From positions 1 to 64,000 of the forward strand of contig JAIXZX010000003.1 in NCBI GenBank assembly GCA_027489335.1: DNA of 64,000 bases, written 5' to 3'. The notes below the pieces were generated by a model. It did no database searches. It was given only the letters and a program-made list of their open reading frames with translations, and was not told the DNA's origin. This document shows, one piece after another, positions 43,191-62,965 of the stretch (positions are counted from its first letter, which is position 1; every line of letters begins with the position of its first letter). The stretch comes from Caulobacteraceae bacterium. Its GTDB lineage: Bacteria; Pseudomonadota; Alphaproteobacteria; Caulobacterales; Caulobacteraceae. The translations under genes were made by a program, and so were the position numbers.

Positions 43191-43309
43191 GGGTCCCTCG
43201 GGGCTCGTCCCGGCGGCCGGGCCAGGCAAGGTTAGGGCGCGGCGCCGACATTATCTTGTCCATCTCGCCCCCTGCGGAGGGGGCGGATGGCTAATCTATT
43301 CTCCAGGTG

Positions 43310-43792
43310 TCAGCGCAGCGGCCTGACCCGCAGGGGCACGGCTGTGGTGTTCTTGGAATCCGCCAGGGTGACGATGGAGCGCACGTCGACCACGCCCGGC
43401 AGCTTCAGGATCGTGGAGAAGACGAAGTCCTGATACCAGTTCACGTCCGGCGCCAGGATCTTCAGCATGGCGTCCATCTCGCCGAACACCGTGTAGCATT
43501 CCAGGATCTCGGGAATGTTCTCGATGGCCCGGTGAAAGCGCGCCCGCTCTTCATCGCTTAGCGTGGTCATCTTGACCTGGGCGAAAATCTGCATGGTGAA
43601 GCCGAGCTTGTGCCGGTCCACCAGGGCCACGGTCCCCTTGATGTAGCCATCCTCCCGCAGTCTCTGGATGCGACGCCAGCACGGCGACTGGGACAGGCCC
43701 ACCCGCTCAGCCAGGTCGGCGGTCGAGAGCGACGCGTCCTTCTGAAGAATCTCCAGAATCTTGACGTCGATGGCGTCCAGCTGGGCCGGCAT
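43310..43792 (-). CDS. Lrp/AsnC-family regulator (copy A)
   Basis: A 160-residue regulator. The N-terminal HTH is LSTADLAERVGLSQSPCWRRIQ, followed by the RAM/effector domain (VFGEMDAMLKILAPDVNWYQ and GVVDVRSIVTLADSK). It is nearly identical in length and sequence to copy B at 48330-48812 (for instance both contain VGLSQSPCWRRIQRL and FSTILKLPGVVDVRSIVTL). It likely senses an amino acid and controls neighbours. Two GCAT-N5-ATGC elements, one over its own start codon, suggest autoregulation. It is upstream of the class V PLP enzyme gene and divergent from TIGR02587. Confidence 0.93.
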   Translation of the reverse strand: MPAQLDAIDVKILEILQKDASLSTADLAERVGLSQSPCWRRIQRLREDGYIKGTVALVDRHKLGFTMQIFAQVKMTTLSDEERARFHRAIENIPEILECYTVFGEMDAMLKILAPDVNWYQDFVFSTILKLPGVVDVRSIVTLADSKNTTAVPLRVRPLR

Positions 43793-43832
43793 AGCTTATG
43801 CTCCGAAGGGCGATCCTGCGCATAACGGATGC
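43789..43832. promoter_or_regulatory. Tandem GCAT-N5-ATGC palindromes at the lrp copy A start
   Basis: GCATAGCTTATGC at 43789-43801 and GCATAACGGATGC at 43820-43832 are two perfect GCAT-N5-ATGC elements whose starts are 31 bp apart (about three helical turns). The first overlaps the start codon. They lie in the divergent region shared with the TIGR02587 gene. Confidence 0.6.
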
Positions 43833-43985
43833 CTTGGCTGTGCGAGTCAAGGCGATCAGGCCCCAGCGTCGCCGCAACCCGCCCGTCGCCGCCGGATCGC
43901 GCATCTTTGCGCCTTGCGCTGGGAACCCTCGGTTGAGTTTGGACCTAAACTGTCGGCGCCTCGGGCGCAGCAGCATGGGGTCATC

Positions 43986-44828
43986 ATGTCGACAGCGATT
44001 GCTTCGCCGCATGCGTTCAAGGCCGATGCGGCCTTCCTGCGCGGTCTGGGCAGGGCCTTCGCCGGCGCCTTGATCTTCGCCCTGCCCATGCTGATGACCA
44101 TGGAGATGTGGCAGCTTGGCTTCTACATGGACCCGCTGCGTCTGGCGTTGCTCCTGGCCCTCACCGTACCCACCCTGGTGGGGCTGTCGCGGTTCGGCGG
44201 CCTGCGCCCCACGGCGCGGCTTCGTGACGATGTGGCCGACGCCCTTGTGGTCCTGCTGGTGGCGGCCCTGGCCGCGACGGTCACGCTCTACATCTTCGGC
44301 ATCCTTGCGCCGGGCATGTCAGCCCGGGAAATCATCGGCAAGATCGTGCTCCAGACCGTGCCCGGCAGCTTCGGCGCGATGCTGGCCCGCAGCCAGCTGG
44401 GCGGCGAGCCGGAGGGGGAGCGGGAGAAGGACCCGCCGACCTACTGGGGCGAGCTCTTTCTGATGGGGGCGGGCGCGCTCTTCCTGTCCTTCAACATGGC
44501 GCCCACCGAGGAGATGGTGCTGATCGCCTACAAGATGTCGGCCTGGCAGTCGGTGAGCCTGGCCCTGGTGTCACTCGGGCTCATGCACGCTTTCGTCTAC
44601 GCCCTGAACTTCAAGGGCGGCTCGGCGCGACCTGATCACATACCGGCCTGGAGCCTGTTCGCCCGCTTCTCCCTGGTGGGATACGCCATCGTGCTTGGCG
44701 TCAGCCTGTTCAGCCTCTGGGTGTTCGGCCGCACTGACGGCGACAGCCTGAAAGAGATCATCAGCGCCAGCATCGTCCTGGGCTTCCCCGGCGCCATCGG
44801 CGCAGCTTCGGCGAGGTTGCTGCTGTGA
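43986..44828 (+). CDS. TIGR02587 family integral membrane protein
   Basis: A 280-residue protein from ATG 43986. It has about seven to eight membrane helices (ALIFALPMLMTMEMWQLGFY, LVVLLVAALAATVTLYIFGI, LFLMGAGALFLSFNMAPTEE). The motif LSFNMAPTEEMVLIAYKMSA is characteristic of the TIGR02587/DUF2391 family. Function is unknown. The overlapping partner gene encodes a TIGR02588 protein, and the pair is conserved in other genomes as I know it, which supports a two-subunit membrane complex. Confidence 0.85.
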   Translation: MSTAIASPHAFKADAAFLRGLGRAFAGALIFALPMLMTMEMWQLGFYMDPLRLALLLALTVPTLVGLSRFGGLRPTARLRDDVADALVVLLVAALAATVTLYIFGILAPGMSAREIIGKIVLQTVPGSFGAMLARSQLGGEPEGEREKDPPTYWGELFLMGAGALFLSFNMAPTEEMVLIAYKMSAWQSVSLALVSLGLMHAFVYALNFKGGSARPDHIPAWSLFARFSLVGYAIVLGVSLFSLWVFGRTDGDSLKEIISASIVLGFPGAIGAASARLLL

Positions 44829-45256: not shown

Positions 45257-46734
45257 GCGGCCTGCCGGATGAAGGCGCGGACGTCGGCGGCCAGGGCCCT
45301 GGCGCTGTCGGCGCCGAGATAGGGCATGTGGCCGGACGGATAGGCCTTCACGGTCACGCGCTCTGGCGGCAGGTCCACCTGGTTCAGGGCGTATTCCGCG
45401 GCGCCCACCGTGGTCACCAGGTCGTAGTGGCCGGCCGCCACGAACAGCCGCAGGGACGGATTGCGCCGCAGGGCCTGGGCGAGCTCGGCCGCGGCGTCGC
45501 GGCCCCGGGGGCCGCCTGGGCCATAGTCCCACTTGGAGTTCACCTGGCTGAAGGCGATGGGGATGTAGGGGGCCTCCATCCGCACCTTCAACTCGCCGGT
45601 CAGATAGCTGTTCATCGCCCCGACAAAGGCCGGCGTGTACTGGCCCATGGCCGGATCATCGGCCACGGGATCGGCGCCGGTGGCCTTCAGGGGCAGCACG
45701 TAGCGGCTGTCATAGGCGCCGACCTGCAGGCCCTTGTCCTTCAAAAGCTCCCGGGAAAAGGCGCCAAGCCCGAGCCGCAGGCGGTTGGCGAGCCACGTCT
45801 GGGCCGGCACGCCGGTCAGGGCGGCTAGTTGCTCGGCCAGCGCCAGCCGATCTGCGGCTGGCACGGCGTTCCCCAGATAGAGGGCGCGCATATAGCCGTC
45901 CGCCGCCAGGGATCGCGCCGCCTCGACGGCTGCGTCCAAGGACCGTCCCTGGCGCAGCTCAGGGCGGTGATACCAGGCGCTCGCCGCCATGGCCGGAAGA
46001 TTGGCGCCGTAAAGGTGGTCGCCCACCGCCCCGCCCATGGCCGGCCCCAGCACCAGAATGCCGTTCAGGGTGATGGCGCCCAGTTCGCCTGAGGGCGAGG
46101 TGGGGCCGCCCATCAGGGTGGTGGCCAGCGCCGCCGCCCGGGTCGTTCCATAGCTCTCGCCCATGACGAACTTGGGCGAGGCCCAGCGGTCATTGCGGGT
46201 CAGCCAGTCGGCGATGAATTTGGCGACGGCCAGGGCGTCCTGATTGACGCCGTAAAAGTCCTCCGTCCGCCCGCCTGGCAGCACGCGGCTGAAGCCGGTG
46301 CCCGGCGGGTCGATGAAGACGAGGTCTGCGACATCCAGCAGGGCGTTGGGATTGTCCTTCAGGGGGAAGGGCGGGACCGTGGGCGGATTGACCTCATCGG
46401 CGAAGTCCACCTGCCGGGGACCGGCCATGCCGAGGTGCAGCCACACTGAAGACGAGCCCGGGCCGCCGTTGAAGATGAAGACCACCGGACGGTCTGGCTT
46501 GGCGACCTTCTCCACATAGCTGAACGAGAACAGGGCCGCAGCCGGGGCGTCCTTGGCGTCGCGCAGGATCGTCTCCCCAGCGGTGGCCTCATAGGCCACC
46601 CGTCGTCCGCCGAAGACGCCCACATGCTGGGTGACGAAGCTCCGGGCCGCCGGCTCCGCCTGGCCGGGCTGCGGGAGCGCCGCCAGCAGACCTAGGGCGA
46701 GGGCTGCGGTCAGCAGGCGTGCTGCGAACCTCAT
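45241..46734 (-). CDS. S10-family serine carboxypeptidase-like protein (second of a tandem pair)
   Basis: A 497-residue protein from ATG 46734, overlapping the stop of the paralog upstream (ATGA). A signal peptide (LLTAALALGLLAALPQPGQA) is followed by VVFIFNGGPGSSSVWLHLGM (oxyanion block), VFIDPPGTGFSR and the nucleophile elbow FVMGESYGTTRAAAL. The catalytic Asp and His are probably in VAAGHYDLVTT and PSGHMPYLG near the end. These periplasmic serine peptidases trim C-terminal residues from peptides. Coupling to the neighbouring S10 gene implies complementary specificities. Confidence 0.88.
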   Translation of the reverse strand: MRFAARLLTAALALGLLAALPQPGQAEPAARSFVTQHVGVFGGRRVAYEATAGETILRDAKDAPAAALFSFSYVEKVAKPDRPVVFIFNGGPGSSSVWLHLGMAGPRQVDFADEVNPPTVPPFPLKDNPNALLDVADLVFIDPPGTGFSRVLPGGRTEDFYGVNQDALAVAKFIADWLTRNDRWASPKFVMGESYGTTRAAALATTLMGGPTSPSGELGAITLNGILVLGPAMGGAVGDHLYGANLPAMAASAWYHRPELRQGRSLDAAVEAARSLAADGYMRALYLGNAVPAADRLALAEQLAALTGVPAQTWLANRLRLGLGAFSRELLKDKGLQVGAYDSRYVLPLKATGADPVADDPAMGQYTPAFVGAMNSYLTGELKVRMEAPYIPIAFSQVNSKWDYGPGGPRGRDAAAELAQALRRNPSLRLFVAAGHYDLVTTVGAAEYALNQVDLPPERVTVKAYPSGHMPYLGADSARALAADVRAFIRQAAQGSE

Positions 46735-48221
46735 GGGGCGGCTGTCACAAAGGCCCGGACGTCGGCCATCATCTGGGCCAGGCTCGCCTCCACCGAATAG
46801 GCCATATGCCCGCCCTGATAGCTCAGCGCCTGGGCGCGGTCCTTGGGCCATCCCGACAGGGCCAGGCCGTAGTCCATGGCGCCGGTGGTGGTCTGGGTGT
46901 CCTGATGGCCATTCATCATCAAGACCCGGAAGTCGGGATTGAGGGCGAACACCTCGCTGACCGGGCTCATGAACGGATAGTCCGAAAAGGGCGAGGCCGG
47001 CCCTTCGGCGTAGCGCCATCCGGCGGTCACGGGGCTGCGGGAGTTGTAGGCGCCCAGGTCGCCCACCTTCAGGGTGTCGCGGGCATAGACCTCGAAGGCG
47101 GCGATCAGCGCCTCAGGCAGCACCCGGGACGGATCGGCGGCCCGCTGGCCAGCCGGCGCCGAAGGGCCGGTATATCGGGCGTCGGCCATGCCAAGCGTCA
47201 GGCCCTGATCCTTCAGGAGTTCGACCCGGAAGCGCTCCTTGGTGATCCGCAGATTGTTCTCGACATAGAAGGCCGCCGGAATGCCGCTATAGGCCTCAAG
47301 CTTCTGGGCGACGGCGGCCCGGACCGCGGGGACGAGATCATCCCCCTGGGCGAGCGCGGTCAGGTATTCGGTGCGGGCGAAGGTGCGAATCTCGGCCATC
47401 CAGGCCTCGAAGTCCTGGCCCTTCAGGTCGGCCTTGCCGTGCCACCAGGCGCTGGCCGCCAGCGTCGGAAGGGAAACCACATAGCTGATGATGTTCTGCG
47501 GCCGCTGGACGTATTCGACGATGTTCATCGCCTGACCCATGAACACCGCGCCGCGCAGGTTCTGGTCCTGCGGCAGCTTCTGGATCTGATTGACGGCGAC
47601 GGCGGCCCGGATGGTGCCGTAACTTTCGCCGAACAGATATTTGGGCGAGGCCTCGCGACCATGGGCCTTCGACCAGGCCACGACGAAGTCGGTCAGCTGG
47701 CGGGCGTCGGCCTCCACCGAGAAATAGGTCTGCGGATCGACCCCTTCGGCGAAGCGGCTGAACCCGGTGCCAGCCGGGTCGAAGAAGACCAGATCGGCCA
47801 CATCGAGCACGGTATAGGGATTGTCGACGATCTTGAAGCTGGCCGGATCGGCGCTCAGGTCATCGGGAACCGCCAGCCGCTTGGGCCCGAATGCGCCCAT
47901 GTGCAGATAGGGCGAGGGCGAGATGGGCCCGCCGTTGAACACGAAGATCACTGGCCGCTCAGGGTTGGCTGTGCGCCCTGTGGCCACATAGGCGGTGCTC
48001 ACCAGACGCACACCTGGACCGCCCTCGGGGCCTGGCAGGTCAAAGGCTTCGACCCGGGCCTGGTAGGCGACCGTCTTGCTATTGAAGACGCCCCGGTGCT
48101 GGGTCACCACCGGTGCTTCCAGGGTGACGGGCGCCAGGGGCGGGGCTGGTTGGGCGTTTGCGGCGCCCAGGCTCAGGGCCAGGCAGGCCCCGATGGCGAG
48201 TCCCCGTCCGAAGATGCTCAT
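46731..48221 (-). CDS. S10-family serine carboxypeptidase-like protein (first of a tandem pair)
   Basis: A 496-residue protein from ATG 48221, chosen because GGGAGGG is eight bases upstream; ATG 48227 and GTG 48248 are in-frame alternatives. The signal peptide is LAIGACLALSLGAANAQPA. The oxyanion block reads FVFNGGPISPSPYLHMG, where the usual Gly-Ser-Ser is replaced by Ile-Ser-Pro. The nucleophile is in LFGESYGTIRAAV, and the terminal His in YQGGHMAYS. The changed oxyanion region might alter activity. It is downstream of Lrp copy B on the same strand. Confidence 0.87.
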   Translation of the reverse strand: MSIFGRGLAIGACLALSLGAANAQPAPPLAPVTLEAPVVTQHRGVFNSKTVAYQARVEAFDLPGPEGGPGVRLVSTAYVATGRTANPERPVIFVFNGGPISPSPYLHMGAFGPKRLAVPDDLSADPASFKIVDNPYTVLDVADLVFFDPAGTGFSRFAEGVDPQTYFSVEADARQLTDFVVAWSKAHGREASPKYLFGESYGTIRAAVAVNQIQKLPQDQNLRGAVFMGQAMNIVEYVQRPQNIISYVVSLPTLAASAWWHGKADLKGQDFEAWMAEIRTFARTEYLTALAQGDDLVPAVRAAVAQKLEAYSGIPAAFYVENNLRITKERFRVELLKDQGLTLGMADARYTGPSAPAGQRAADPSRVLPEALIAAFEVYARDTLKVGDLGAYNSRSPVTAGWRYAEGPASPFSDYPFMSPVSEVFALNPDFRVLMMNGHQDTQTTTGAMDYGLALSGWPKDRAQALSYQGGHMAYSVEASLAQMMADVRAFVTAAP

Positions 48222-48308
48222 GGCCATGACCCTCCCAGCTGACGACACAGCCTAGCCGCAGGTCCTCAGATTATCTTGCCCTTGTGGGCGCGGCCCCGGC
48301 GGCCCCTT

Positions 48309-48321
48309 GGATAGGCTATGC
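48309..48321. promoter_or_regulatory. Near-match to the GCAT-N5-ATGC element upstream of the S10 pair
   Basis: GGATAGGCTATGC differs from GCAT-N5-ATGC at one position and lies about 90 bases before the S10 start, right after the lrp copy B stop. On its own it is weak; it is listed because of the other sites. Confidence 0.3.
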
Positions 48322-48329
48322 GGCGGCGC

Positions 48330-48812
48330 CTAGCGGAAGGTCCGGTGCCGCAGGGGCACGGCCGTGGTGGATTTGGACTCCGACAGGGTCACGATGGAGC
48401 GCACATCGACCACGCCTGGCAGCTTCAGGATCGTGGAGAAGATGAAGTCCTGGTACCAGTTCACGTCGGGCGCCAGCACCTTCATCATGCAGTCCATCTC
48501 GCCGAAGACGGCGTAGCACTCCAGGATCTCGGGGATGTCGTGGATGGCCTTGAAGAAGCCCTCCCGCTCCTGGTCGGTGAGGGTGGTCATCTTCACCTGG
48601 GCGAAGACCTGCATCTTGAAGCCCAGCAGCTGGCGATCAACGATGGCCACGGTCGCCTTGATATAGCCCTCGTCCTTCAGCCGCTGAATCCGGCGCCAGC
48701 AGGGGGACTGCGACAGGCCCACCCGCTCGGCCATCTCGGCGGTGGAGAGCGAGGCGTCCTTCTGCATCAGGTCGAGGATCTTGAGGTCGATCGCGTCCAA
48801 GGCCGACGGCAT
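48330..48812 (-). CDS. Lrp/AsnC-family regulator (copy B)
   Basis: A 160-residue regulator, paralog of copy A (43310-43792), with the same HTH (VGLSQSPCWRRIQRL) and effector domain (DVNWYQDFIFSTILKLPGVV). The two could bind the same DNA and form mixed oligomers. Conserved promoter spacing of the GCAT-N5-ATGC elements upstream of both genes points to a recent duplication including the regulatory region. It is upstream of the tandem S10 genes and divergent from the class I/II aminotransferase. Confidence 0.93.
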   Translation of the reverse strand: MPSALDAIDLKILDLMQKDASLSTAEMAERVGLSQSPCWRRIQRLKDEGYIKATVAIVDRQLLGFKMQVFAQVKMTTLTDQEREGFFKAIHDIPEILECYAVFGEMDCMMKVLAPDVNWYQDFIFSTILKLPGVVDVRSIVTLSESKSTTAVPLRHRTFR

Positions 48813-48852
48813 ATCTTATGTCTCCCCATCTCGCACGGAGCATAGCGGATGC
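48809..48852. promoter_or_regulatory. Tandem GCAT-N5-ATGC elements at the lrp copy B start
   Basis: GCATATCTTATGT at 48809-48821 (one mismatch) and GCATAGCGGATGC at 48840-48852 (perfect) repeat the 31-bp spacing and start-codon overlap of copy A. The region is shared with the divergent aminotransferase gene. Confidence 0.6.
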
Positions 48853-48975
48853 GGAGACCACCCCTGTCAAGGAACACAAAGGCAAGAAAAACCAAGGCCC
48901 GTAACTAGGATCGGTTCCTGGGCGCCTGCCGCTTTCTGGCGGGCCAGGGAGTGTGCTGGCCATGGGGGCGAGGCC

Positions 48976-50145
48976 TTGAATTCAGCGAGTGCGCGGCTGA
49001 GCCTGCCATCCGGCGACGGGTTTCGCTCAGGGCTCGAGGGCGGCTACACCGCCTGGGTTCGCGAGGTCCTGGGCGCGGTGGCGACCGAGCCGCGAGCCGC
49101 CGTCCTGTTCGACTCCACCATCAAGGAGCCCACCGACCTGCTGGCCGCCGTCGTGCGCGAGGCGTTCCGGGATGGGGTCACCGACCGCTTTGAAAGCACC
49201 TTCGCCGGGGGCAATCGCTATGTGGCCGCCGCGGTCGCCAAACGCCACGGCGTCCAGCCCGAGCAGGTGATCTGCACGACTGGCGCCACCAGCGCCATGG
49301 CGATGGCCATGACCGCCTTCGTCGCTCCGGGTGATCATGTGATCGTCGAGGCGCCGGCCTTCGACCTGCTGCCCGCCCTGGCGCAACAGGCCCAGGCGAA
49401 GATCACGCCGCTGCCCCGTCGGGCGCCGGACTTCGCCATCGACCTGGATGAGCTGCGGGCGCTGGTGCGGCCTGACACCCGCCTGATCCTGCTGACCCAG
49501 GTGCACAATCCGTCGGGAGCGGTCCTGGACGCCCAGACCCTGCGGGCTATCGCCGACATCGCCCGGACTGCGGGCGCCCGCGTCCTCATCGATGAGGTCT
49601 ATGCCGATTTCGCCGATGTGGGGTCTGCGGTCGGTCTGTCTGACGTCTTCATCAGCGCCGGCAGCCTGACCAAGGTGCAGGGCCTGTTCGCCCTTAAGTG
49701 CGGCTGGGCCGTCGGGTCCGCGGCCAACATCGCCGCCATTCAGGCCGCGAACCCGCAGGGGGACCTCGGGGTCTCCAAGCTCGCCCACGCCATTGGCGCC
49801 CTGGTGCTGGAGGACATGGCGCCGTTCGACGCCCATTGGCGGGGCGTGCTGGCGGCCGCCCGCCCGGTGCTCTGCGCCCATGTGGACCGCATGGCGGCTG
49901 ACGGTCTGATCGTCGGCGAGCCGCCCGCCTATGGGTGCATGTACTTTCCCCAGGTGGTCGGGGTCGGCGACACCCTCAGTCTCGCCTCCCGGCTCTGGAG
50001 CGAAGAGAAGATCGTCGTGGCGCCGGGCGAGTTCTTTGGTCAGCCAGGGCATGTTCGGATCGGCTTTGGCGGGGACGCCGAGGCGCTCGATGCTGGGCTC
50101 GGTCGTCTGCACGCCGCCCTGCTGCGCCGCCGGGGAGCGCCGTGA
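48976..50145 (+). CDS. Class I/II PLP-dependent aminotransferase
   Basis: About 389 residues from TTG 48976, the first plausible start before the conserved part; a run of G lies 7 bases upstream. The exact start is uncertain. The fold is aminotransferase class I/II with the cofactor block TTGATSAMAMAMTAF, NPSGAVLDAQTLRAI, LIDEVYADF and the Schiff-base Lys in ISAGSLTKVQGLFALKCGW. The usual SLSK-type site is SLTK here. It has no signal peptide, so it acts in the cytoplasm on imported amino acids. It is divergent from Lrp copy B and upstream of the TonB receptor. Confidence 0.83.
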   Translation: MNSASARLSLPSGDGFRSGLEGGYTAWVREVLGAVATEPRAAVLFDSTIKEPTDLLAAVVREAFRDGVTDRFESTFAGGNRYVAAAVAKRHGVQPEQVICTTGATSAMAMAMTAFVAPGDHVIVEAPAFDLLPALAQQAQAKITPLPRRAPDFAIDLDELRALVRPDTRLILLTQVHNPSGAVLDAQTLRAIADIARTAGARVLIDEVYADFADVGSAVGLSDVFISAGSLTKVQGLFALKCGWAVGSAANIAAIQAANPQGDLGVSKLAHAIGALVLEDMAPFDAHWRGVLAAARPVLCAHVDRMAADGLIVGEPPAYGCMYFPQVVGVGDTLSLASRLWSEEKIVVAPGEFFGQPGHVRIGFGGDAEALDAGLGRLHAALLRRRGAP

Positions 50146-50426
50146 GCGGGCGGGTCCAGTGCGCCCCGGCGCTTGGATGCGACAGTCGGTCTCGCCTGAG
50201 GGTCCGCATTGGACATGCGACGTGGCCTGACCGTCTGCATAAACGATTTGCGACATGCCGGTGACGCTTGGGCTTTCGAAAAGAAAAACCGGCGGTGGCT
50301 GACTAGTCTGACGTGACTGCAATCACGGGCTTCGGGCCATGCCCAACGCACCTGCTCAAAGACGGTGGGGCGTGCGGGTCTGAGGCGCTTGGATTTTGGG
50401 GGCCGCTTCGGCCAATGGGGGATGCA
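50146..50426. promoter_or_regulatory. Leader region of the TonB receptor operon with GCAT-N5-ATGC element
   Basis: GCATTGGACATGC at 50206-50218 is a perfect copy, and GCATAAACGATTT at 50237-50249 is a degenerate second one exactly 31 bp on, matching the spacing at both lrp promoters. The region also has a purine-rich stretch (AAAAGAAAAACC near 50280). Otherwise no clear promoter or RNA. Confidence 0.55.
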
Positions 50427-53372: not shown

Positions 53373-53480
53373 GGCGACAAAGGAAAGCGCCGGGCCTTAG
53401 CGCCTGGCGTCCCTGCGGGGGCGGCGCGGTGGCATCCCCATCGCCCGCCCCCGTCTCCATCTCCGAAGGAGGCTCGCCGC

Positions 53481-54419: not shown

Positions 54420-55741
54420 GCGAGCCTGCGCCGCCTTCCGCCGACACCACAGGCCTGCTGCACAGGGGAGTCGACCTCTGGGCGGTGATCTCGCTGGGCC
54501 TCGGGACGGCGGTCGGGGTGGCGATCTTCTCCGTGATCGCGCCGGCCACGGCGCTCGCCGGACCTGGCATGCTGCTGGCGGTGCTGATCGCAGCTGTCCC
54601 GATGTTCGTGATCGCGGTGACCTACGCCTTCATGGGCTCGGCCCTGCCGACCTCGGGCGCCTCGTTCGAGTGGTCGCGACGGTTCGTCAGCCCCTTCCTC
54701 GGCTTCATGATCGCCTGGCTGCGTATCATCTCCAACCTGGGCGCCATCCTGGTCCTGGCCCTGGTGCTGGTGCGCTATCTGAACATGGTCGTGCCGCTGC
54801 CCACCAAGCCGGCCATGTTCGGGATCTTCGTGATCTTCTGGGCGGTGAACATCATCGGCGTCGGTCTCGCGGGCCGTCTGCAGGTGCTGATGATCGCCGC
54901 CATGATCGGGCTTTTCGCCCTGTTCGCCGCCTGGGGCGCGCCCTCGATCACGCCGCAGGCCTATGCGCCGCTGCTGCCCCAGGGATGGGCCGGCGTCCTG
55001 GCGGCCATCCCGCTGCTGATCGGCCTCTTCTTCGGCATCGAGTCCTCCACCGAGATCGGCGATGAGGTGAAGAACCCCCGCCGGACCATCCCCCTGGGTC
55101 TGGCCCTTTCGATCCTGGCGGCGGTGGCGCTCTATATGATTGTGGCGGGCGTCACCATGGGCGTGCTGGGCGCCGATGCGTTGGGGGCGAGCGAGACGCC
55201 GCTGCTGGACGCCGCCGAGGTCTTCATGGGGCCGCTCGCCAAGCCGCTGATCGTCACGGCCGCCGTGGTGGCCATCGGCACCTCGATCAACTCCCTCTAT
55301 CTGGGCTTCTCCCGGAACCTCTTCGCCATGGCCCGGGCCGGCATGCTGCCGGCTGTCTTCACGAAGGTGCATCCGCGCACGGGCGCGCCTTACGTGGCGC
55401 TCAGCGTCATCCTGGCGGGCGCGACGCTTGGCCTGGCCGCGCCGATGAACCTGACCGCGCTCTTCCTGGCGGTGAATATCCCGACCCTGCTGAAGTACGC
55501 CGGGGTCAACCTGGCGGCCGCTGTCGTCGTGCGACGGCACCCCGAAATCTATGAGGCGGCGACGTTCCGCCTGTCGAAACCGGCCACCGTCTTCTGGGCC
55601 TATGCCGGGACGCTGATGGCCCTGGTCGTCGCCCTGCTGGGTCTGGGCGCCGACTGGACGCCCTATGCGGCGCTGGCCGTCTGGGCGGTGCTGGGAACGG
55701 GCTATTACCTCGCCTTCGTTCGCCAGCGTGAAGCGGTCTGA
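54416..55741 (+). CDS. APC-family amino-acid permease
   Basis: A 441-residue inner-membrane protein with about 12 helices. It opens with the family pattern VISLGLGTAVGVAIFSVIAP, then YAFMGSALPTSGASFEWSRR and FGIESSTEIGDEVKNPRRTI, the conserved loop of amino acid/polyamine permeases. It would take the imported amino acid into the cytoplasm. It lies between and overlaps the two ornithine-cyclodeaminase-family genes, which probably act on the same substrate. Confidence 0.9.
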   Translation: MSEPAPPSADTTGLLHRGVDLWAVISLGLGTAVGVAIFSVIAPATALAGPGMLLAVLIAAVPMFVIAVTYAFMGSALPTSGASFEWSRRFVSPFLGFMIAWLRIISNLGAILVLALVLVRYLNMVVPLPTKPAMFGIFVIFWAVNIIGVGLAGRLQVLMIAAMIGLFALFAAWGAPSITPQAYAPLLPQGWAGVLAAIPLLIGLFFGIESSTEIGDEVKNPRRTIPLGLALSILAAVALYMIVAGVTMGVLGADALGASETPLLDAAEVFMGPLAKPLIVTAAVVAIGTSINSLYLGFSRNLFAMARAGMLPAVFTKVHPRTGAPYVALSVILAGATLGLAAPMNLTALFLAVNIPTLLKYAGVNLAAAVVVRRHPEIYEAATFRLSKPATVFWAYAGTLMALVVALLGLGADWTPYAALAVWAVLGTGYYLAFVRQREAV

Positions 55742-56691
55742 TGCGGGTCATCGGCCAGGATGAGGTCCGAGCGCGGCTGACCTTTGAAGTCTGCATCCCC
55801 ATCATGCGCCAGGCTATGATCGCGTTTTCCAGGGGGGAGACCCGCCAGCTGCTGCGCAGCATCATCCCCCTGGACCAGGGCCGCATGTTCGGGGTCATGC
55901 CCGGCGCCCTGGGGGAGCGGGCCTGTTTCGGCGCCAAGCTGGTCAGCGTGTTTCCAGAGAACTTCGCCCTGGGCCGCCAGTCCCACCAGGGCGTGGTGGT
56001 CCTGTTCGACGGGGAGAGCGGCGTTCCCATCTGCGTGGCACATGCCGGGGAGATCACGGCCATCCGCACCGCTGCCGCCAGTGCGGCGGCCACCGACGCC
56101 CTGGCCCGGCCTGAGGCTCATCGCCTGGCTCTGCTGGGCTATGGCGAGCAGGCCAGGACCCACCTTCGGGCCATATCCAGGGTGCGCGCGCTGAGCGATG
56201 TGCGCGTCTGGGGACGGGACTTCGGCCGGGCCCAGGTCTTCGCCGCCGAAATGTCCGTCGAGACCGGCATTCGGGTGCGCGCCGTTGCGGGCGCGCAGGC
56301 CGCGGTGGACGAGGCCGACATCATCTGCACGCTCACCAGTTCCAAGACGCCGGTCTTGCTGGGCGCCTGGGTCGCGCCTGGCGCGCACCTCAATCTGGTC
56401 GGCTCGAGCTATGCGGGCCCTGTGGAGGTCGATCATGACCTGGTGCTGCGCGCCCGGCTGATCGCCGACAGCCGCGAGGGCGTCCTGGCCCAGGGCGCCG
56501 AGGTGCTGGCCGCCAAGGCCGCGGGCCTGATCGACGACGCTCATGTGGTGGGCGAGATCGGCGAGGTGTTCGACGGCCGTCTGGCCGGCCGCCAGTCCCC
56601 CGACCAGATCACCGCCTACAAGTCCCTGGGCCACATTGTGCAGGATCTGGCCAGCGCCCAGGCCCTGATGGAGCTTCAAACCGCCCGATGA
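55741..56691 (+). CDS. Ornithine cyclodeaminase/mu-crystallin family protein (second copy)
   Basis: A 316-residue paralog of the protein at 53481-54419. It has FGAKLVSVFPE, the NAD loop LALLGYGEQARTHLRAI and the AGEITAIRTAAASAAATD block. The corresponding catalytic-site segment reads NLVGSSYAGPVEVDHDLV, again without the cyclodeaminase Asp. The start shares one base with the permease stop and the stop overlaps the M61 start. Two copies around one permease suggest sequential steps or two related substrates. Confidence 0.85.
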   Translation: MRVIGQDEVRARLTFEVCIPIMRQAMIAFSRGETRQLLRSIIPLDQGRMFGVMPGALGERACFGAKLVSVFPENFALGRQSHQGVVVLFDGESGVPICVAHAGEITAIRTAAASAAATDALARPEAHRLALLGYGEQARTHLRAISRVRALSDVRVWGRDFGRAQVFAAEMSVETGIRVRAVAGAQAAVDEADIICTLTSSKTPVLLGAWVAPGAHLNLVGSSYAGPVEVDHDLVLRARLIADSREGVLAQGAEVLAAKAAGLIDDAHVVGEIGEVFDGRLAGRQSPDQITAYKSLGHIVQDLASAQALMELQTAR

Positions 56692-58385
56692 ACGCCAAGG
56701 TCCTCAGCCTCGCCGCCGCCCTCGTCCTGTGGAGTCAGTCCGCCGCGGCCGCCGAACCCGCCGCGCTCACCGTCCTCATCGCGCCCGGTCTGATGAACGA
56801 GATCCGGGGCCTCGGACATGTGGACATCACCCTGACCCTGTCGGACCTCGACGCCGCGGCGGGCGACGTGCTGGTCAGCCTGCCTATTGTTATCGCCAAT
56901 ACCGAGACGGTGGCCGAGCACCTGATTGGGCTTTCCGCCCGGGACGATCAGGGGACCGTTCCTCTGCAGGTGCGCGATGATCCTGAGGCCCTGGTCTATG
57001 CGCGCCACTGGCTGGCTGGCCGGCCCGTCAGCGGCGATCTGGTGATCAGCTATCGCGCGCCCATCGACAACACACCGCCGCGGCGGGGGTCGGGTCCGCC
57101 CTATCAGCTGCGCACCGAAGGCGGCGGCTTTTCGGCGGTGGGCAACACCTTCCTGCTGACGCCCCCGGACGGCCGCGACTACCAGGTCACGATCGACTGG
57201 GATCTCAGCGCCATGGGGCAGGGCGCCACGGCCACCTCCAGCTGGGGGGAGGGCGATGCGGTCCTGCCGGGCGCCGGCTCAGCCGACCGCCTGTGGTCCG
57301 GGGTGTTCATGGCAGGCCCCATGAAGCGTTATCCGGCCCACCCGCAGAACAACGGCTTTTCCGCCGCCTGGCTCGGGACCCCACCCTTCGATCCGGCGCC
57401 GCTCATGGCCTGGACCGAGACCCTGCACACCTGGATGAGCGACTTCTTCCAGGAGACCGACGAGCCGCCCTACCGGGTCTTCTTGCGGTTCAATCCGATC
57501 AACGCCGGCGGTGGGGCGGCGCTCACCAACTCGTTCCTCACCACCTATGGCCAGGCCACCACGGCCGAGAGCATCAAAGGCACGCTGGCCCACGAGATGA
57601 TCCACACCTGGACCTCGCTGGGTCCTGGCCAATGGTATTCCGAGGGCAATGCGGTCTTCTATCAGGCGCAACTGCCCTGGCGGGCGGGGCTGATCTCCAC
57701 CGAGGACTATCTGCAGGACATCAACGACACCGCCCGGCGCTATTACACCAACGCGCTCAACGACACGCCCAACGACCAGATCGCCGCCCGCTTCTGGGAG
57801 GACACCCGGGTGCGGACCCTGCCTTACGACCGGGGCGGGCTGTACTTCGCAGTGCTGAACGATCGCATCCGCAAGGCCTCGGCCGGTCAGCGGTCGGTGG
57901 ATGATCTGATCCTGGCCATGATCGCCCGGCGCCGGGCGGGCCTGCCGGTGAGCGAGGCCGACTGGCAGGACCTGGTGGTCGCTGAGCTGGGGGAGGCGGG
58001 CGCGCAGCTCACCGCCGACATGCTGGCGGGTGGTCTGATGCTGCCGGAATCGGACGCATTTAGCCCCTGTTTTGCGCGCATAACCCGGCCTTTTCGTCGC
58101 TTTGAGCTGGGTTTTGAACCGCGGTCTCTGGTCGGACACGTCAAAACCATCGCCGGGCTGATGCCAGGCTCGGAGGCCGAGAAGGCCGGGCTCAGAAACG
58201 GCGATGTAGTCACCTATGCGGTGGCCATGGATTCGGTGCAGGGCGATCCCGAGCGCACCCTGACCCTGCAGGTGACCCGCGACGGCGAGACCTTCCCCAT
58301 CACCTATCTGCCTCGGGGCGAATGGGTGGAGGCCTACCAGTGGGCCCGCAGGCCCGAGGTTCCGGAGGCCGCCTGCCGGCCGTAA
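56688..58385 (+). CDS. M61-family metallopeptidase with PDZ domain
   Basis: A 565-residue secreted protein. The signal peptide ends near SAAAAEP (residue 24). The gluzincin zinc site is HEMIHTW at residues 302-308, and the third ligand is probably Glu in WYSEGNAVFYQ. The C-terminal part is a PDZ domain (SLVGHVKTIAGLMPGSEAEK, AGLRNGDVVTYAVAMDS). M61 enzymes (glycyl aminopeptidases) remove N-terminal residues. It ends the receptor/permease operon and would trim imported peptides in the periplasm. It has a paralog without PDZ at 61192-62721. Confidence 0.87.
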   Translation: MNAKVLSLAAALVLWSQSAAAAEPAALTVLIAPGLMNEIRGLGHVDITLTLSDLDAAAGDVLVSLPIVIANTETVAEHLIGLSARDDQGTVPLQVRDDPEALVYARHWLAGRPVSGDLVISYRAPIDNTPPRRGSGPPYQLRTEGGGFSAVGNTFLLTPPDGRDYQVTIDWDLSAMGQGATATSSWGEGDAVLPGAGSADRLWSGVFMAGPMKRYPAHPQNNGFSAAWLGTPPFDPAPLMAWTETLHTWMSDFFQETDEPPYRVFLRFNPINAGGGAALTNSFLTTYGQATTAESIKGTLAHEMIHTWTSLGPGQWYSEGNAVFYQAQLPWRAGLISTEDYLQDINDTARRYYTNALNDTPNDQIAARFWEDTRVRTLPYDRGGLYFAVLNDRIRKASAGQRSVDDLILAMIARRRAGLPVSEADWQDLVVAELGEAGAQLTADMLAGGLMLPESDAFSPCFARITRPFRRFELGFEPRSLVGHVKTIAGLMPGSEAEKAGLRNGDVVTYAVAMDSVQGDPERTLTLQVTRDGETFPITYLPRGEWVEAYQWARRPEVPEAACRP

Positions 58386-58494
58386 CGGCCTTGTGGGCGC
58401 CACGGGCTTCGACCTTGGCGCGGGCGACCTCTATGCTTACCTCCGCAAGCTGGCCGCCGCAGGCGCTGGCCAAGGCACCATTGAGAGGTAGAGC

Positions 58495-59112
58495 ATGAAA
58501 TCCCACCTGTTGGCCGCTGTGGCGGCGATTGTCCTGGCCTCGCCCGTCATGGCCCAGGCGCCAGCCATGCCCGGCCAGCCCGAAGCCTCCCGCGTTGTGG
58601 CCGGCAGCTACAAGGTCGACACCAACCACACCCAGGTCGTCTGGTCGGTGGATCATATGGGATTTTCGACCCTCTATGGGATGGTCGGTGAGATGACCGG
58701 GACGCTGAACCTCGATCCGGCCAATCTGTCGGCCGCCAGCCTGTCGATCGACATTCCCCTGTCGGGCCTGACGGTGACCTCGGAAGCCTTTGGCAAGCAC
58801 CTGGCCTCGGCCGACTTCTTCGAGGTGGAGAAGTTCCCCACCGCCAAGTTCGTGTCGACCTCGGTGGTGGCCAACGGCAATGAGGCCAAGATCACGGGCG
58901 ACCTGACCCTGCATGGCGTCACCAAGCCGGTGGTGCTGGACGCCAAGCTGATGGGCGCCGGCGCCAACCCCATGAACAAGGCCCAGACGGTGGGCTTCAC
59001 CGCCACCTCGACCCTGAAGCGCAGCGACTTCGGCCTGGGCTATGCCGCCCCGGTGGTCTCTGACGAGGTCGAATTGAAGATCACGGCGGCCTTCGAACTG
59101 GCCGCGTCCTAA
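58495..59112 (+). CDS. YceI-family secreted lipid-binding protein
   Basis: A 205-residue protein with a signal peptide (LLAAVAAIVLASPVMAQA). The YceI lipocalin-like fold is clear: YKVDTNHTQVVWSVDHMGFS, SLSIDIPLSGLTV, KHLASADFFEVEKFPTAKFV and TGDLTLHGVTKPVVL. The family binds isoprenoid-like lipids in the periplasm. It is 109 bases after the M61 gene and is convergent with the amidohydrolase gene. The link to the peptide genes is not evident. Confidence 0.92.
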   Translation: MKSHLLAAVAAIVLASPVMAQAPAMPGQPEASRVVAGSYKVDTNHTQVVWSVDHMGFSTLYGMVGEMTGTLNLDPANLSAASLSIDIPLSGLTVTSEAFGKHLASADFFEVEKFPTAKFVSTSVVANGNEAKITGDLTLHGVTKPVVLDAKLMGAGANPMNKAQTVGFTATSTLKRSDFGLGYAAPVVSDEVELKITAAFELAAS

Positions 59113-59118
59113 GGACGC

Positions 59119-59151
59119 CGCCCGGCCGCCTCATTGAGGGGCGGCCGGGCG
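59119..59151. terminator. Convergent hairpin between yceI-like and amidohydrolase genes
   Basis: CGCCCGGCCGCC (59119-59130) and GGCGGCCGGGCG (59140-59151) form a perfect 12-bp stem with a 9-base loop between two convergent stops. It lacks a T tract but is suited to both directions. Confidence 0.65.
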
Positions 59152-59157
59152 CGACGC

Positions 59158-61182
59158 CTACTGCGCCGGGGTGACCGGCGGCGGGGCCGCGAACGGCTTC
59201 ACATTGAGGTGGTCGTAGATTTCGGCCGGGTAGTAGGCCACCCCGCCGACCATGGTCATGCGCACCTTGCGGATGTCGCTGATGTCGGTGGTGGGATCGC
59301 CCTCTACCAGGATCAGGTCGGCGAGCTTGCCGCGGGCGATGGAGCCCAACTCATGGTCGCGGCCGAAATAGCGCTCGGCGTCCAGGGTGGCCAGGCGCAG
59401 GGTCTTGGCCGGGGAAATCCCCGCCATCACATAGACCTCCAGCTCCCGATGGACCGAGAAGCCCGTGCCGTCGTCGGTGCCGGGCAGCAGCTGGACATCG
59501 TTGTCGTCCAACAGCTTGAGCACCTCCAGCACCTTGCCGAAGCCGGCCTGATAGGCGGCGTCGGTCTCGTACTGGCCCTCGCCCAGGGTCACGAAGGAGC
59601 GCTTACGGTAGCGCTGATAGGCCACCGGCACATGGTCGAAATAGGGGGCGTCAGCCGGGTGCACCTGGCCTGAGCGGCTGAGCATCAGCCGCTCCAGGAT
59701 CATGGCGGTGGTGTCCAGCGCCTTGCCGTTCTCGCGCATGTACCGGACGGTCGAGAGCACGCGTTCGGAGTTCAAATCGAGGTCTGACGCCCGCGCCATG
59801 CCCGTCAGGCGCAGGGGCGTACGGGTGTCTTCTTCCGGATCCAGGATCCAGCCCAACATCAGCTGATTGATGTGGGCGATGTCGTCATAGCCGTCCATCA
59901 GGACGCGATCGGGGCTGGAAAAGGCCGGCACGTGGCCGGTCACGCCCATGCCCAGGCGCCGGGCCTCGGCCGCCAGGGGACCCACCCAATCGGGGTTCAT
60001 CGAGTTGTAGATCTTGATCTGCCAGTAGCCGCGCTCGGCGTACCAGCGGACGTTCTCCAGGCCTTCTTCCAGGGTCTCCGGGATGAATCCATGGCGGGCG
60101 GAATAGGGGCTGCGGCCTTCCAGGAAGCCGTTGCGCACGATGCGCGGACCGGCCAGCTCGCCGGACTCCAGGCCTTTGACCATGCCCATCAGCCGCTCAT
60201 TGTCATTGCCCTGATCCCGCGTCGCGGTGACCCCGGCGGCCAGGTAGAAGAGGTTGGAGGACAGCGAGGTATGGGAGTGCATGTCGTGCAGGCCAGGCAT
60301 CAGAGTTCCACCCTGGCCATCGATCACCACCTGTCCCTCCGGCGCCGGCGCGTCGGTCTCCGGCTGAATGCTGGTGATCCGGTCGCCGAACACCACGACG
60401 GTGGAGAGCCCGCCCCGCGTCATGGTCTCAGGGTCAAAGATCCGGACGTTACGGATGCGCACCGGCGTGTCGAACCGGTGGGCGAGCTTGGCCTGGGCTG
60501 CCTTGGCCTGATCGAGCGAGATTTCCTGGGCCAGGGCGCTGAGCTCTTCCAGGTGCGTCTCATAACCTTCCCGGATCAGGCCGCCGCCCAGGACGCCGAA
60601 CAGGTCGCCGCGGGCGTCAACCATCACGTAGCTGGGGTTGAGATCAACGCCGGACAGCTCATAGACGGTCAGCTTCACCGCTGAGGCGCCTTCGCCCAGG
60701 GTGACCTTGCGGACCTCCTGCAGGCGCATGGCGCCCGATGGCAGGGCGGGCAGGGTCTGGCCGGGCGCCTTCAGCAGCGCCTTGACGTACTGGCCGAGAA
60801 TCCAGGGGCTGCCGTCATTGGGGACGTAGAGGACGGGACCGGAAACCTCGGCCTGGCCCTCGTCGGCCTGGCTGACCCACCGGGCCGTACCGCCCTGGCG
60901 GCTGAAGGACTCCTGCACGGGGCTGCCGAACAGGGAGGAGCCTTCGATGGCCCAGGTCACCGGCGCACCGGCGGCGTCCACCGTGATCTGCTCGCGGGCC
61001 TTGGGGCCGCGGCCATTGTTGTCGATGGCGAAGTCGACTGAGGTGGTGCGGCCATCCACCTCGGCCACCAGATGGCCGACCTTCTCGCCCCCGGCCATGG
61101 CGACGAACCGGTGGGTGGCGGCTTCGGCGGCGCCGGCGAAGGCGACGAGGGCGGCCAGGAGGAGGGGGCGAGCAAGCATCAT
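59158..61182 (-). CDS. Exported amidohydrolase-family protein
   Basis: A 674-residue protein with a signal peptide (LLLAALVAFAGAAEA). An N-terminal beta-rich region (about 25-220) precedes a metal-dependent amidohydrolase domain. The domain carries the HxH block LMPGLHDMHSHTSLS, later TGHVPAFSSPDRVLMDGYDD and the Asp block LLPGTDDGTGFSV, ending with GSIARGKLADLILVEGDPTT. The family includes imidazolonepropionases and dipeptidases; a peptidase or cyclic-amide hydrolase is a fair guess. It follows the M61 paralog by 9 bases on the minus strand. Confidence 0.88.
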   Translation of the reverse strand: MMLARPLLLAALVAFAGAAEAATHRFVAMAGGEKVGHLVAEVDGRTTSVDFAIDNNGRGPKAREQITVDAAGAPVTWAIEGSSLFGSPVQESFSRQGGTARWVSQADEGQAEVSGPVLYVPNDGSPWILGQYVKALLKAPGQTLPALPSGAMRLQEVRKVTLGEGASAVKLTVYELSGVDLNPSYVMVDARGDLFGVLGGGLIREGYETHLEELSALAQEISLDQAKAAQAKLAHRFDTPVRIRNVRIFDPETMTRGGLSTVVVFGDRITSIQPETDAPAPEGQVVIDGQGGTLMPGLHDMHSHTSLSSNLFYLAAGVTATRDQGNDNERLMGMVKGLESGELAGPRIVRNGFLEGRSPYSARHGFIPETLEEGLENVRWYAERGYWQIKIYNSMNPDWVGPLAAEARRLGMGVTGHVPAFSSPDRVLMDGYDDIAHINQLMLGWILDPEEDTRTPLRLTGMARASDLDLNSERVLSTVRYMRENGKALDTTAMILERLMLSRSGQVHPADAPYFDHVPVAYQRYRKRSFVTLGEGQYETDAAYQAGFGKVLEVLKLLDDNDVQLLPGTDDGTGFSVHRELEVYVMAGISPAKTLRLATLDAERYFGRDHELGSIARGKLADLILVEGDPTTDISDIRKVRMTMVGGVAYYPAEIYDHLNVKPFAAPPPVTPAQ

Positions 61183-61191
61183 CTTGAAGTC

Positions 61192-62721
61192 CTACCAGTT
61201 GCGGCAGAGGTCGTCGGGGACGTCGGTTTGACGCACCCACTCATAGCGATCGACAGGGCCGCGGCCTTCGATCTCATAGGTCTTGTCCCGGCGGGTGAAG
61301 CAGGGGCCAAAGGCGTTCGGATGGGGGGCGAAGGCCTCGCCGCGCAGGATGCGGGCCTCGAACTCCTCACCGGCCCCCGGCCCGATCTCGGCGCTGATCA
61401 GGGCGATCCAGGCGGCATGGTCGAAGGTCTGGCCGGCCTGGCGGGCCTCGAACATGGGGCGCAGCACAGTGTCCAGGGTGCGGGCCCCGCCGGACCGCTC
61501 GCGGATACGGGCGTCCAGGTCTGCGAAATAGAAGGCGCCGCGGTGGTAAGGGATGTGGCGGATATCCCCATCTGCGAAACCCACCTCGACGATCTCCTGC
61601 GCGCTCAGATCCTGCGCGGCCAGACCATAAAGGGCCTGGGCGGAATGATCGATGTGCGCCCCATAGGCGGCGACCGAATCCAGACCGCCGCGCAGCATCA
61701 TCAGGCGGGTGTAGTGGGTGGTCAGACCCTCGGTGAACCAGCTGGTGACGCCCTGTGGCCCCTCGATCCCACCGACCCACATATGGACCATCTCGTGGAC
61801 CAGGGTCTCCCGCGGGGATGGGGCCGTTTCACCCTCCGCCAGGGCGCAGTGGGCGTACATGAAGGAGGCGCCGAGCGCGGTGCCCCCGCCGCAGGGTGCG
61901 CCGTCCACGAAGCGCATGAAGACTCGGTAGGGCGGGACGGGATCGAGATATCCGAAGGCCTCGCCCAGATAGGTGTAGGCGTCGGCCGCCCAGGCCATTT
62001 CGGCGCCCGCATCGAAGGGCGCGCGTCCGAGCCAGCTGGCGCTGAAACCGGCGCTCTGCCCCGCGCCCACATAGCGGCCGAACGGACCGGCCATGTACCA
62101 GCCCTGCATCAGGCGCGAGGGCGGGCCGTCCACCTGCGTGTCGCCCTCACCGAAGCTGGTCCTGGCGCCTGATCCGGCGGGCAGCTCAGACAGGTCCCAG
62201 CTCAGCTGCGAGTGTGAGGTCTGAACGCCGCGGGGCAGGAGCAGAAAGCCAGAGCCCGCCCCACTCAGTCCGCCCCCTGAAGCGCGCAGGTCAAAGGGCG
62301 GGCCGCCCCGGCCGCCGGGCGTCCGCACCCGGGCGACATACGACACCTCAACTTCGCCGCTGACAGGCCGCTCGGCGGTCCAGTGGCGGAAATGGGGGAA
62401 GCCGCCAGGGTGAGGCGGGTCATCGGTGGTGGTGAAGGCGATCGGCCCTGCGGCGTCCCGGGCCGAAATGGACTCCATCCGGTCGGCGACGCCCTCAACG
62501 CCCGCATAGGTGATCGGCGCGGCAAGGTCCAAGGCTGAACCCGCCGGCAGGATGACCTGCCATCGAACAGCCAGGGCGTCGACATCATCGTCGCCCCCGG
62601 TGAGCGGCTTGAGCGTCATCTGGAAGGGCGCAGGCTCGGCCATGGCAGGGGCGGGGGTGAGGCCGAAGGCCAGGGTCGCCAGCAGGGCGGCCGCGCCACG
62701 CCAGAACTGCTCGCCGTTCAT
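61192..62721 (-). CDS. M61-like metallopeptidase without PDZ domain
   Basis: A 509-residue secreted protein from ATG 62721, preceded by GGAGGGG. The signal peptide ends near PAMAEP. The zinc site is HEMVHMW at residues 309-315, and the helix holding the third ligand is in WFTEGLTTHYTR. It is a clear paralog of the protein at 56688-58385 (matching AFYFADLDARIRE- and LRPMFEARQAGQ-like regions). Where the other has a PDZ domain it goes straight to the short ending FTRRDKTYEIEGRGPVDRYE. It is probably the first gene of an operon with the amidohydrolase. Confidence 0.82.
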   Translation of the reverse strand: MNGEQFWRGAAALLATLAFGLTPAPAMAEPAPFQMTLKPLTGGDDDVDALAVRWQVILPAGSALDLAAPITYAGVEGVADRMESISARDAAGPIAFTTTDDPPHPGGFPHFRHWTAERPVSGEVEVSYVARVRTPGGRGGPPFDLRASGGGLSGAGSGFLLLPRGVQTSHSQLSWDLSELPAGSGARTSFGEGDTQVDGPPSRLMQGWYMAGPFGRYVGAGQSAGFSASWLGRAPFDAGAEMAWAADAYTYLGEAFGYLDPVPPYRVFMRFVDGAPCGGGTALGASFMYAHCALAEGETAPSPRETLVHEMVHMWVGGIEGPQGVTSWFTEGLTTHYTRLMMLRGGLDSVAAYGAHIDHSAQALYGLAAQDLSAQEIVEVGFADGDIRHIPYHRGAFYFADLDARIRERSGGARTLDTVLRPMFEARQAGQTFDHAAWIALISAEIGPGAGEEFEARILRGEAFAPHPNAFGPCFTRRDKTYEIEGRGPVDRYEWVRQTDVPDDLCRNW

Positions 62722-62776
62722 CCGCCCCTCCACCGCTGGCCTAGTTTCCTGGGGTGAACTCTAGCGGCAAGGCCCC

Positions 62777-62829
62777 GCATAGTGCTTGCGTTGTCCCGGC
62801 GACCCCGGCGACCGGCGCATAGTTCATGC
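62777..62829. promoter_or_regulatory. GCAT-N5-ATGC element between divergent M61 and S10 genes
   Basis: GCATAGTTCATGC at 62817-62829 is a perfect element and extends to GGCGCAT-N5-ATGCGCC. A one-mismatch copy, GCATAGTGCTTGC, sits at 62777-62789 (40 bp apart). Both lie in the divergent promoter region. Confidence 0.55.
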
Positions 62830-62965
62830 GCCGCAGACCCTGGCCTGTGGCGGGCTACGGCCCACTGGCGGCAGATCAGCCGCACAACGAAATGCTTTTC
62901 TACCGGCCACCGCATAGGCTGATCGCCGAAGAGCGTCTGTTCCGAACCGCTGCGCGAGGCCTGCA

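Follow-up and report, generated by a model that had tools for sequence, protein, structure and literature searches.

A palindrome in front of Lrp-type genes is the probable operator of a local regulon in a peptide and amino-acid island of a Caulobacteraceae bacterium

The palindrome GCAT-N5-ATGC recurs in front of the genes of two regulators of the Lrp/AsnC family, LrpA and LrpB, and of neighbouring genes in a stretch of 64,000 nucleotides from a Caulobacteraceae genome (contig JAIXZX010000003.1; the whole analysed stretch is called the window). Judged by its sequence context, this palindrome is probably the operator of a local LrpA/LrpB regulator that represses its own gene and activates an island of peptide and amino-acid genes. 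An Lrp regulon had been proposed in a preliminary description of this DNA, and the proposal is supported by the upstream location of the sites and by their recurrence in orthologous promoters, with an extent that appears local rather than genome-wide. Position and co-occurrence point to LrpA or LrpB as the binding protein; the direction of regulation, the start points and the ligand given below are those that we infer. The decisive support for the palindrome is its conservation in the sequences of relatives. The operators are also part of a larger promoter module that had been missed before; this composite promoter, consisting of operators, a box and TAnnnT, is new here.

All five perfect copies reported previously were found, at 43789, 43820, 48840, 50206 and 62817. 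Among the reported near copies, those at 48809, 62777 and 48309 have one mismatch, whereas the copy at 50237 has two. The spacing of 31 bp from start to start was borne out at both lrp genes and at the TonB receptor gene; the copies at 62777 and 62817, with starts 40 bp apart, are unlike these pairs. The lrp genes and their sites are as follows.

43310..43792, minus strand: lrpA, Lrp/AsnC-family regulator of 160 amino acids (Pfam HTH_AsnC-type and AsnC_trans_reg)
43789..43801, unstranded: perfect predicted operator overlapping the lrpA start codon (pattern match)
43820..43832, unstranded: perfect predicted operator overlapping the -10-like region of lrpA, 31 bp from the 43789 copy; TTGAC starts 18 bp before it (pattern match)
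48330..48812, minus strand: lrpB, Lrp/AsnC-family regulator of 160 amino acids (Pfam domains; identity to LrpA)
48809..48821, unstranded: one-mismatch predicted operator covering the start codon of lrpB and doubling as the -75 operator of the aminotransferase gene divergent from it (pattern match)
48840..48852, unstranded: perfect predicted operator over the -10-like region of lrpB, also the -44 operator of the aminotransferase gene (pattern match)

The comparison set comprised 40 sequences (the window and 39 loci collected by Lrp orthology; 652,507 bases), in which an annotated gene is one matched by a window protein, the remaining genes being unmarked. Among these proteins, the aminotransferase query and that of the S10 gene at the window end were read out of frame (8 and 6 stops), as was the receptor query in one search (12 stops); identities and start distances obtained with them are left out here, and the window's own promoter registers rest on corrected starts. 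One short contig (L072) was excluded by hand from the palindrome, gene-position, box, tree and lrp-promoter counts; near relatives of the window (L046-L049) were thinned by an 88% rule for the promoter model and box counts and retained in the palindrome, gene-position and lrp-promoter counts. Perfect palindromes with the 5-bp gap numbered 98, against 3-20 for gaps of 2-4 and 6-11 bp, and 24 of the 44 palindrome pairs within 120 bp were exactly 31 bp apart, giving the regular whole-turn spacing of Lrp/AsnC-type operators as a property of the sites, not of the protein itself. As a control, 15 other four-letter palindromes were counted with the same gap: TCGA occurred 100 times, GATC 61 times and the rest 0-20 times; TCGA formed 48 close pairs, and its six commonest spacings all differ from 31. 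Two weaknesses that the preliminary description had foreseen did not appear. In these sequences the motif is not equally common inside genes, 78 of the 98 copies lying at most 400 bp upstream of an annotated start, with 6 genic and 14 neither; and the sites are conserved in orthologous promoters, recurring before lrp, TonB receptor, S10 and SufS-like genes.

Conservation is closest at the regulator genes. Where an lrp gene is at least 74% identical to LrpA or LrpB, an operator is found 39-41 bp before the start codon in 37 of 37 cases (perfect in 36), and in 36 of these 37 there are exactly 18 bp from the start of TTG-N-C to that of the operator, so that the -10 hexamer falls inside the operator. 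A second operator lies over the start codon in 21 of the 37. Of nine more distant lrp genes, four have a GAAT form with one mismatch at the corresponding position. Four Brevundimonas-type loci (L080, L082, L083, L084) carry GAATAG-NN-AATGC ∼41 bp before lrp, possibly a diverged operator, and two Brevundimonas SufS-like promoters retain the box described below, one of them with a one-mismatch operator at -75. At another locus (L060, 7900-8480; we guess from matching features that it belongs to genome G486) lrpA is kept beside a DUF2391 gene, its protein has a long branch in the tree and no operator is left over the start codon. The aminotransferase, receptor (out-of-frame query) and S10 genes were unmatched in the 16-kb stretch of this locus, as if the regulator drifts once its targets are lost.

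At the target genes the palindromes form part of a composite, with operators at -75 and -44 relative to a box, ARGAWAAWCC, which occupies the -35 place, is unlike TTGACA and is followed by TAnnnT after a 17-bp spacer. The box pattern was derived from upstream regions and then searched with no operator required. It was found in 83 places in the 40 sequences, 74 of them outside annotated genes and 54 after removal of redundancy. Fifty of these 54 boxes have an operator (two mismatches at most) at -44 or -75/-76, and 34 have both; every one of the 35 perfect operators upstream of the 54 boxes is at -44, -75 or -76; and TAnnnT is found at +22/+23 of the box in 51. Among the nine boxes inside annotated genes, TAnnnT is at that place in two; one of these (L074), which has an operator at -75 as well, is probably a genuine promoter onto which a gene match was extended too far. 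In 51 promoters, whose column profile is partly circular since they were selected for box and operator, most of the information sits in the operator pair, the box, CTAGnnT and a lead-in, AnAACGAA, the spacers being nearly uninformative.

Six target promoters of the window fit this register, with two boxes and one operator degenerate. A clear box is present at the aminotransferase, receptor, S10 and SufS-like promoters, and the two divergent promoters of the M61-like and S10 genes fit once the lead-in or the -10 is used to align them. The SufS-like promoter was picked up by a sequence-only composite model of the 51 promoters although it is absent from the training set. The predicted targets adjoin the regulator gene, as in local amino-acid and peptide Lrp regulons.

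48884..48893, plus strand: AAGAAAAACC box, -35 place of the aminotransferase gene, with TAGGAT at 48906 (box pattern, register alignment)
48964..50145, plus strand: PLP-dependent aminotransferase, class I/II (Pfam PF00155)
50206..50218, unstranded: perfect predicted operator at -75 of the receptor promoter (pattern match)
50237..50249, unstranded: two-mismatch predicted operator at -44 of the receptor promoter (register alignment)
50281..50290, plus strand: AAGAAAAACC box, -35 place of the receptor gene, with TAGTCT at 50304 (composite-model alignment)
50415..53372, plus strand: TonB-dependent receptor (Pfam Plug and TonB_dep_Rec_b-barrel; searched as 50313-53372)
48309..48321, unstranded: one-mismatch predicted operator at -44 of the S10 peptidase promoter (pattern match)
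48268..48277, minus strand: AAGATAATCT box, -35 place of the S10 gene, with TAGGCT at +23 (composite-model alignment)
46731..48221, minus strand: S10-type serine carboxypeptidase-like protein (Pfam PF00450)
45241-46878: second S10-type protein, after the 46731-48221 gene
43289..43301, unstranded: operator-like sequence, degenerate with three mismatches and left out of the site count, at -44 of the SufS-like gene (composite-model alignment)
43248..43257, minus strand: AAGATAATGT box, -35 place of the SufS-like gene, with TAACCT at +23 (composite-model alignment; outside the training set)
41928..43190, minus strand: class V aminotransferase/SufS-like PLP enzyme (Pfam PF00266)
62817..62829, unstranded: perfect predicted operator between divergent genes, at -75 of the S10 gene (plus) and -43 of the M61-like gene (minus) in hand-set registers (pattern match)
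62892..62901, plus strand: -35 place of the S10 gene, aligned by the ACAACGAA lead-in; degenerate box, TAGGCT at +23 (register alignment)
62965..64000, plus strand: S10-type peptidase, cut at the window end (Pfam PF00450)
62777..62786, minus strand: -35 place of the M61-like gene, 23 bp before TAGAGT, with lead-in ACAACGCA and degenerate box; covers the near copy 62777 (register alignment)
61192..62733, minus strand: M61-like zinc peptidase candidate (label of the preliminary description), with an HEMVH motif and no match in the Pfam search
53481..61182, unstranded: remainder of the island, without an assigned operator: two ornithine-cyclodeaminase-family genes, an amino-acid permease, an M61 peptidase, a presumably YceI-like gene and an amidohydrolase (Pfam, open reading frame list)

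The copy at 62777, listed earlier among the near copies, more plausibly marks the -35 place of the M61-like gene than an operator; 62777 and 62817 were rejected as an operator pair on this ground and on their spacing of 40 bp. A DUF2391 membrane-protein gene (43833-43986 stretch) is divergent from lrpA, and no pattern box is listed before it, in contrast to the aminotransferase gene divergent from lrpB.

What the box does is a matter of more tentative interpretation. It may be a dedicated substitute for a -35 element, used by RNA polymerase only together with an Lrp array 44 and 75 bp upstream, or it may be read directly by wrapped Lrp or by an unrecognised partner; operator pair, box and -10 would then be one rigid unit repeated at the island's target genes, a possibility that we would put somewhat below even. 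A role specific to the regulon is plausible because the box did not turn up as a general promoter element in any genome that was tested. A pattern scan of the window's own genome (box plus -10) was discarded, its gap being too narrow and two known promoters having been missed, and was replaced by the composite model and a model of the box alone. The latter was trained on these promoters and scored 150 first-look candidates per genome, so that diverged members could be missed; in 14 genomes, seven with Lrp and seven without, it gave no match beyond the lrp neighbourhood at an E-value of 0.01 or better. The box, in the place of a -35 element and unlike TTGACA, might alternatively mark a general promoter class of an alternative sigma factor, with the Lrp operators as only one input. 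We consider such a class quite unlikely, none having been seen with the box model away from lrp in those 14 genomes.

In the window by itself the palindrome is less telling. The preliminary description had called five perfect copies unexpected; a first-order model of the window's dinucleotides expects 1.65 per 64 kb, so that five are only mildly surprising there, and matches with at most one mismatch (perfect ones included) are not enriched, at 28 against a shuffle mean of 33.4. The claim is stronger against the genome's own rate: the whole genome (3.10 Mb, 14 contigs) holds 27 perfect copies, five of them in the window, against three for a reversed-pattern control, and the Poisson probability of five copies is 2.8e-4 in 64 kb and 9e-7 in the 19-kb stretch, the latter having been picked post hoc with lrp copies that are perhaps non-independent. 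Window-level enrichment was dropped as the main proof, being too weak by itself, and it is the relatives that decide. Genome-wide, the palindrome is rarer (27 copies) than the window's dinucleotides predict (∼80). By a codon-usage score, read for 15 of the 22 copies outside the window, nine are clearly coding, three ambiguous and three apparently non-coding. These modest statistics, and the overlap of some copies with ATG and -10 sequences, are what one would expect if the copies were chance, promoter or start-codon sequence conserved through close kinship. That account is extremely unlikely in our view: the 31, 44 and 75 bp spacings are found repeatedly upstream of different genes, in promoters at most 88% identical and with nearly uninformative spacers, the 5-bp gap is exceptional, and the copies before the receptor, S10 and SufS-like genes are off any start codon.

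The composite model was then applied to whole genomes, with E-values that the tool itself describes as rough. In the window's own genome the three strong matches (7e-12 or better) are all training promoters of the island. The next four, at 0.007-0.038 in three places, are also in the island and outside the training set, two of them being the same lrpA sites on both strands. Most of the 13 weaker matches that were read in this genome lie in coding sequence. A genome-wide regulon was set aside as less likely, no strong composite match occurring outside the island in this genome (lone operators without a box would escape the model). Among 101 Phenylobacterium genomes an Lrp ortholog is present in 33, and composites at 2.4e-14 or better were found in 32 of these, with three to seven matches each at 0.01. 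The 68 genomes of the genus without an ortholog gave marginal matches at 0.01 or better in 14 (best 1.3e-3) and none in 54. Among the matches listed, those of five little fragmented genomes (G021, G022, G028, G454, G459) lie within ∼12 kb of each other around lrp; in fragmented ones such as G002, G472, G478, G483 and G488 some are on other contigs. In a family sample of 199 genomes drawn, strong matches occurred in three genomes of another genus and marginal ones in three of a third genus. The receptor was found at 1e-150 or better in 31 of the 33 Lrp-bearing genomes and matched in 17 of the 68 without Lrp, 14 at 37-40% identity and three at 52-53%; of the latter three, G468 has one marginal composite match (0.005), and G016 and G035 have none. 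In eight stretches (L169-L174, L176, L177) composite matches overlap on opposite strands, perhaps in divergent gene pairs sharing operators; the pattern box is on one strand only in seven of them and absent in the eighth. Divergent promoters with shared operators were not upheld as a general reading, and palindromic operators matching both strands may explain part of the overlap.

Several of our observations weigh against a local Lrp regulon, beginning with the missing one-mismatch enrichment noted above and with the fact that the start-codon ATG and the -10 region fix part of two operator sequences. The start-codon operator is absent from 16 of the 37 close lrp genes, the operator of the SufS-like promoter has three mismatches, and the registers of the M61-like promoter and of the S10 promoter at the window end were set by hand. 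The box pattern was written after inspection, and the L074 box, counted as genic, is itself in the training set. In the window's own genome the first composite match outside the island comes at 0.044, a thin margin; one genome (G486) has Lrp without the composite; and the 14 marginal matches in the 68 genomes without Lrp exceed the nominal E-value prediction. Many of the 32 composite-bearing genomes supplied training promoters and the loci were gathered by Lrp orthology, so that the co-occurrence of Lrp and composite is partly shared inheritance; most genomes without Lrp are also without a close receptor.

The two proteins are members of the Lrp/AsnC family, each having an AsnC-type helix-turn-helix (HTH) domain (PF13404) followed by a RAM domain (PF01037), above the cut-offs. 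Both fall short of the equivalog for E. coli-type Lrp, NF008370, scoring 119.7 and 113.3 bits where the cut-off is 233. LrpA and LrpB are 78% identical, and their closest named relatives, among the 40 loci (some of them metagenome bins), are in Phenylobacterium, along with a small number from other Caulobacteraceae and from outside the family. LrpA and LrpB belong to different groups, both fully supported, in a tree of 40 Lrp proteins (six and five rows), and of the 33 genomes of the genus that have an ortholog, six have two copies. The earlier caution that the sites at the two genes are not independent if the genes were duplicated was well placed, the two lrp promoters being related; yet both are kept in several relatives. 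The HTH segment (columns 28-44) is invariant in nine of nine aligned orthologs, which suggests one DNA specificity for LrpA and LrpB.

It is conceivable that a different regulator binds the palindrome and that lrp is merely one of its targets. The palindrome lacks the AT-rich centre reported for the sites of the Lrp-type protein BarR (PMC10201364), and a second Lrp-like gene, of 31-36% identity, is found in the fetched stretch of four relatives (L051, L052, L059, L078). This alternative is nevertheless very unlikely: the operator stands at lrp in all 37 close orthologs, the composite tracks Lrp through the genus, the spacing agrees with that given for Lrp proteins (PMC10201364, PMC2995911), and among the window proteins that were run against Pfam, a subset of the open reading frames, none was recognised as another regulator.

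With LrpA or LrpB as the binder, one may propose the following model. Linked Lrp dimers would bind two operators 31 bp apart (about three helical turns) on one face of the DNA; binding to sites on one face at a distance of two or three helical turns, and the ability to repress or activate, are described for Lrp-family proteins (PMC2995911). At lrp, an operator over the -10 of a TTGAC-type promoter, joined by the start-codon operator in about half of the orthologs, would lead to repression; autorepression is predicted because the operator covers the -10 region. At the targets, operators at -75 and/or -44 would serve a promoter that lacks TTGACA and has the box 17 bp before TAnnnT, and activation is predicted because they lie upstream of a promoter with a non-standard -35 place. 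A start point ∼7 bp after TAnnnT would put the operator centres near -72 and -103, suited to activation by contact with RNA polymerase; these positions match those of class I activation by CRP. The operator pair between lrpB and the aminotransferase gene would serve both repression and activation. The ligand is presumably an amino acid freed from imported peptides, as suggested by the permease, peptidases, ornithine-cyclodeaminase-family and PLP enzymes of the island.

Lrp might, however, bind and repress its targets too, or wrap the DNA, instead of activating. The operators over the -10 of lrp suggest a repressive capacity, and E. coli Lrp is presented as repressor or activator in the same source (PMC2995911). 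We think this rather unlikely, since the target operators are upstream of the presumed -35 place and TTGACA is absent at the targets, whereas TTGAC is present at lrp.

Our findings define a bacterial Lrp regulon at the level of sequence, with a fixed operator, a fixed spacing and a fixed promoter, and they bring S10 peptidases, PLP enzymes and a so far uncharacterised TonB receptor together as a single physiological unit. If the model is true, repression of the regulator's own gene and activation of the gene divergent from it both go through a single operator pair, and with the geometry fixed, activation by Lrp, often blurred by degenerate sites, can be tested directly, element by element. No earlier account of the palindrome or of a Phenylobacterium Lrp regulon was found in a literature search made largely without subscription papers and without preprints.

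Among known systems, E. coli Lrp resembles LrpA and LrpB in having HTH and RAM domains over the full length, and it is the best NCBIfam match of both proteins; its structure 2gqq is among three PDB sequences at 1e-20 or better, the best being 3i4p. The two proteins differ from it in falling below the equivalog cut-off, and the strong composite matches are confined to one island. The window palindrome is also without the AT-rich sequence of the E. coli Lrp consensus. PutR and BkdR are local Lrp/AsnC regulators of amino-acid catabolism whose genes lie beside their targets. Set against general descriptions of these two, the system here differs in having peptidases and an outer-membrane receptor among its targets and in the promoter module with a box that the targets have in common. 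A further likeness is to BarR of the Sulfolobales, an Lrp-type activator of a beta-alanine aminotransferase, which is a local regulator encoded next to an aminotransferase gene and has several sites at regular intervals between two promoters (PMC10201364). Its 15-bp sites and 15-17 bp spacers, as given there, correspond by our calculation to 30-32 bp from centre to centre; the archaeal transcription machinery and the AT-rich centres of the sites set it apart from the system described here (PMC10201364). The 2016 abstract on BarR sets it against classical Lrp-like factors (PMC4977709).

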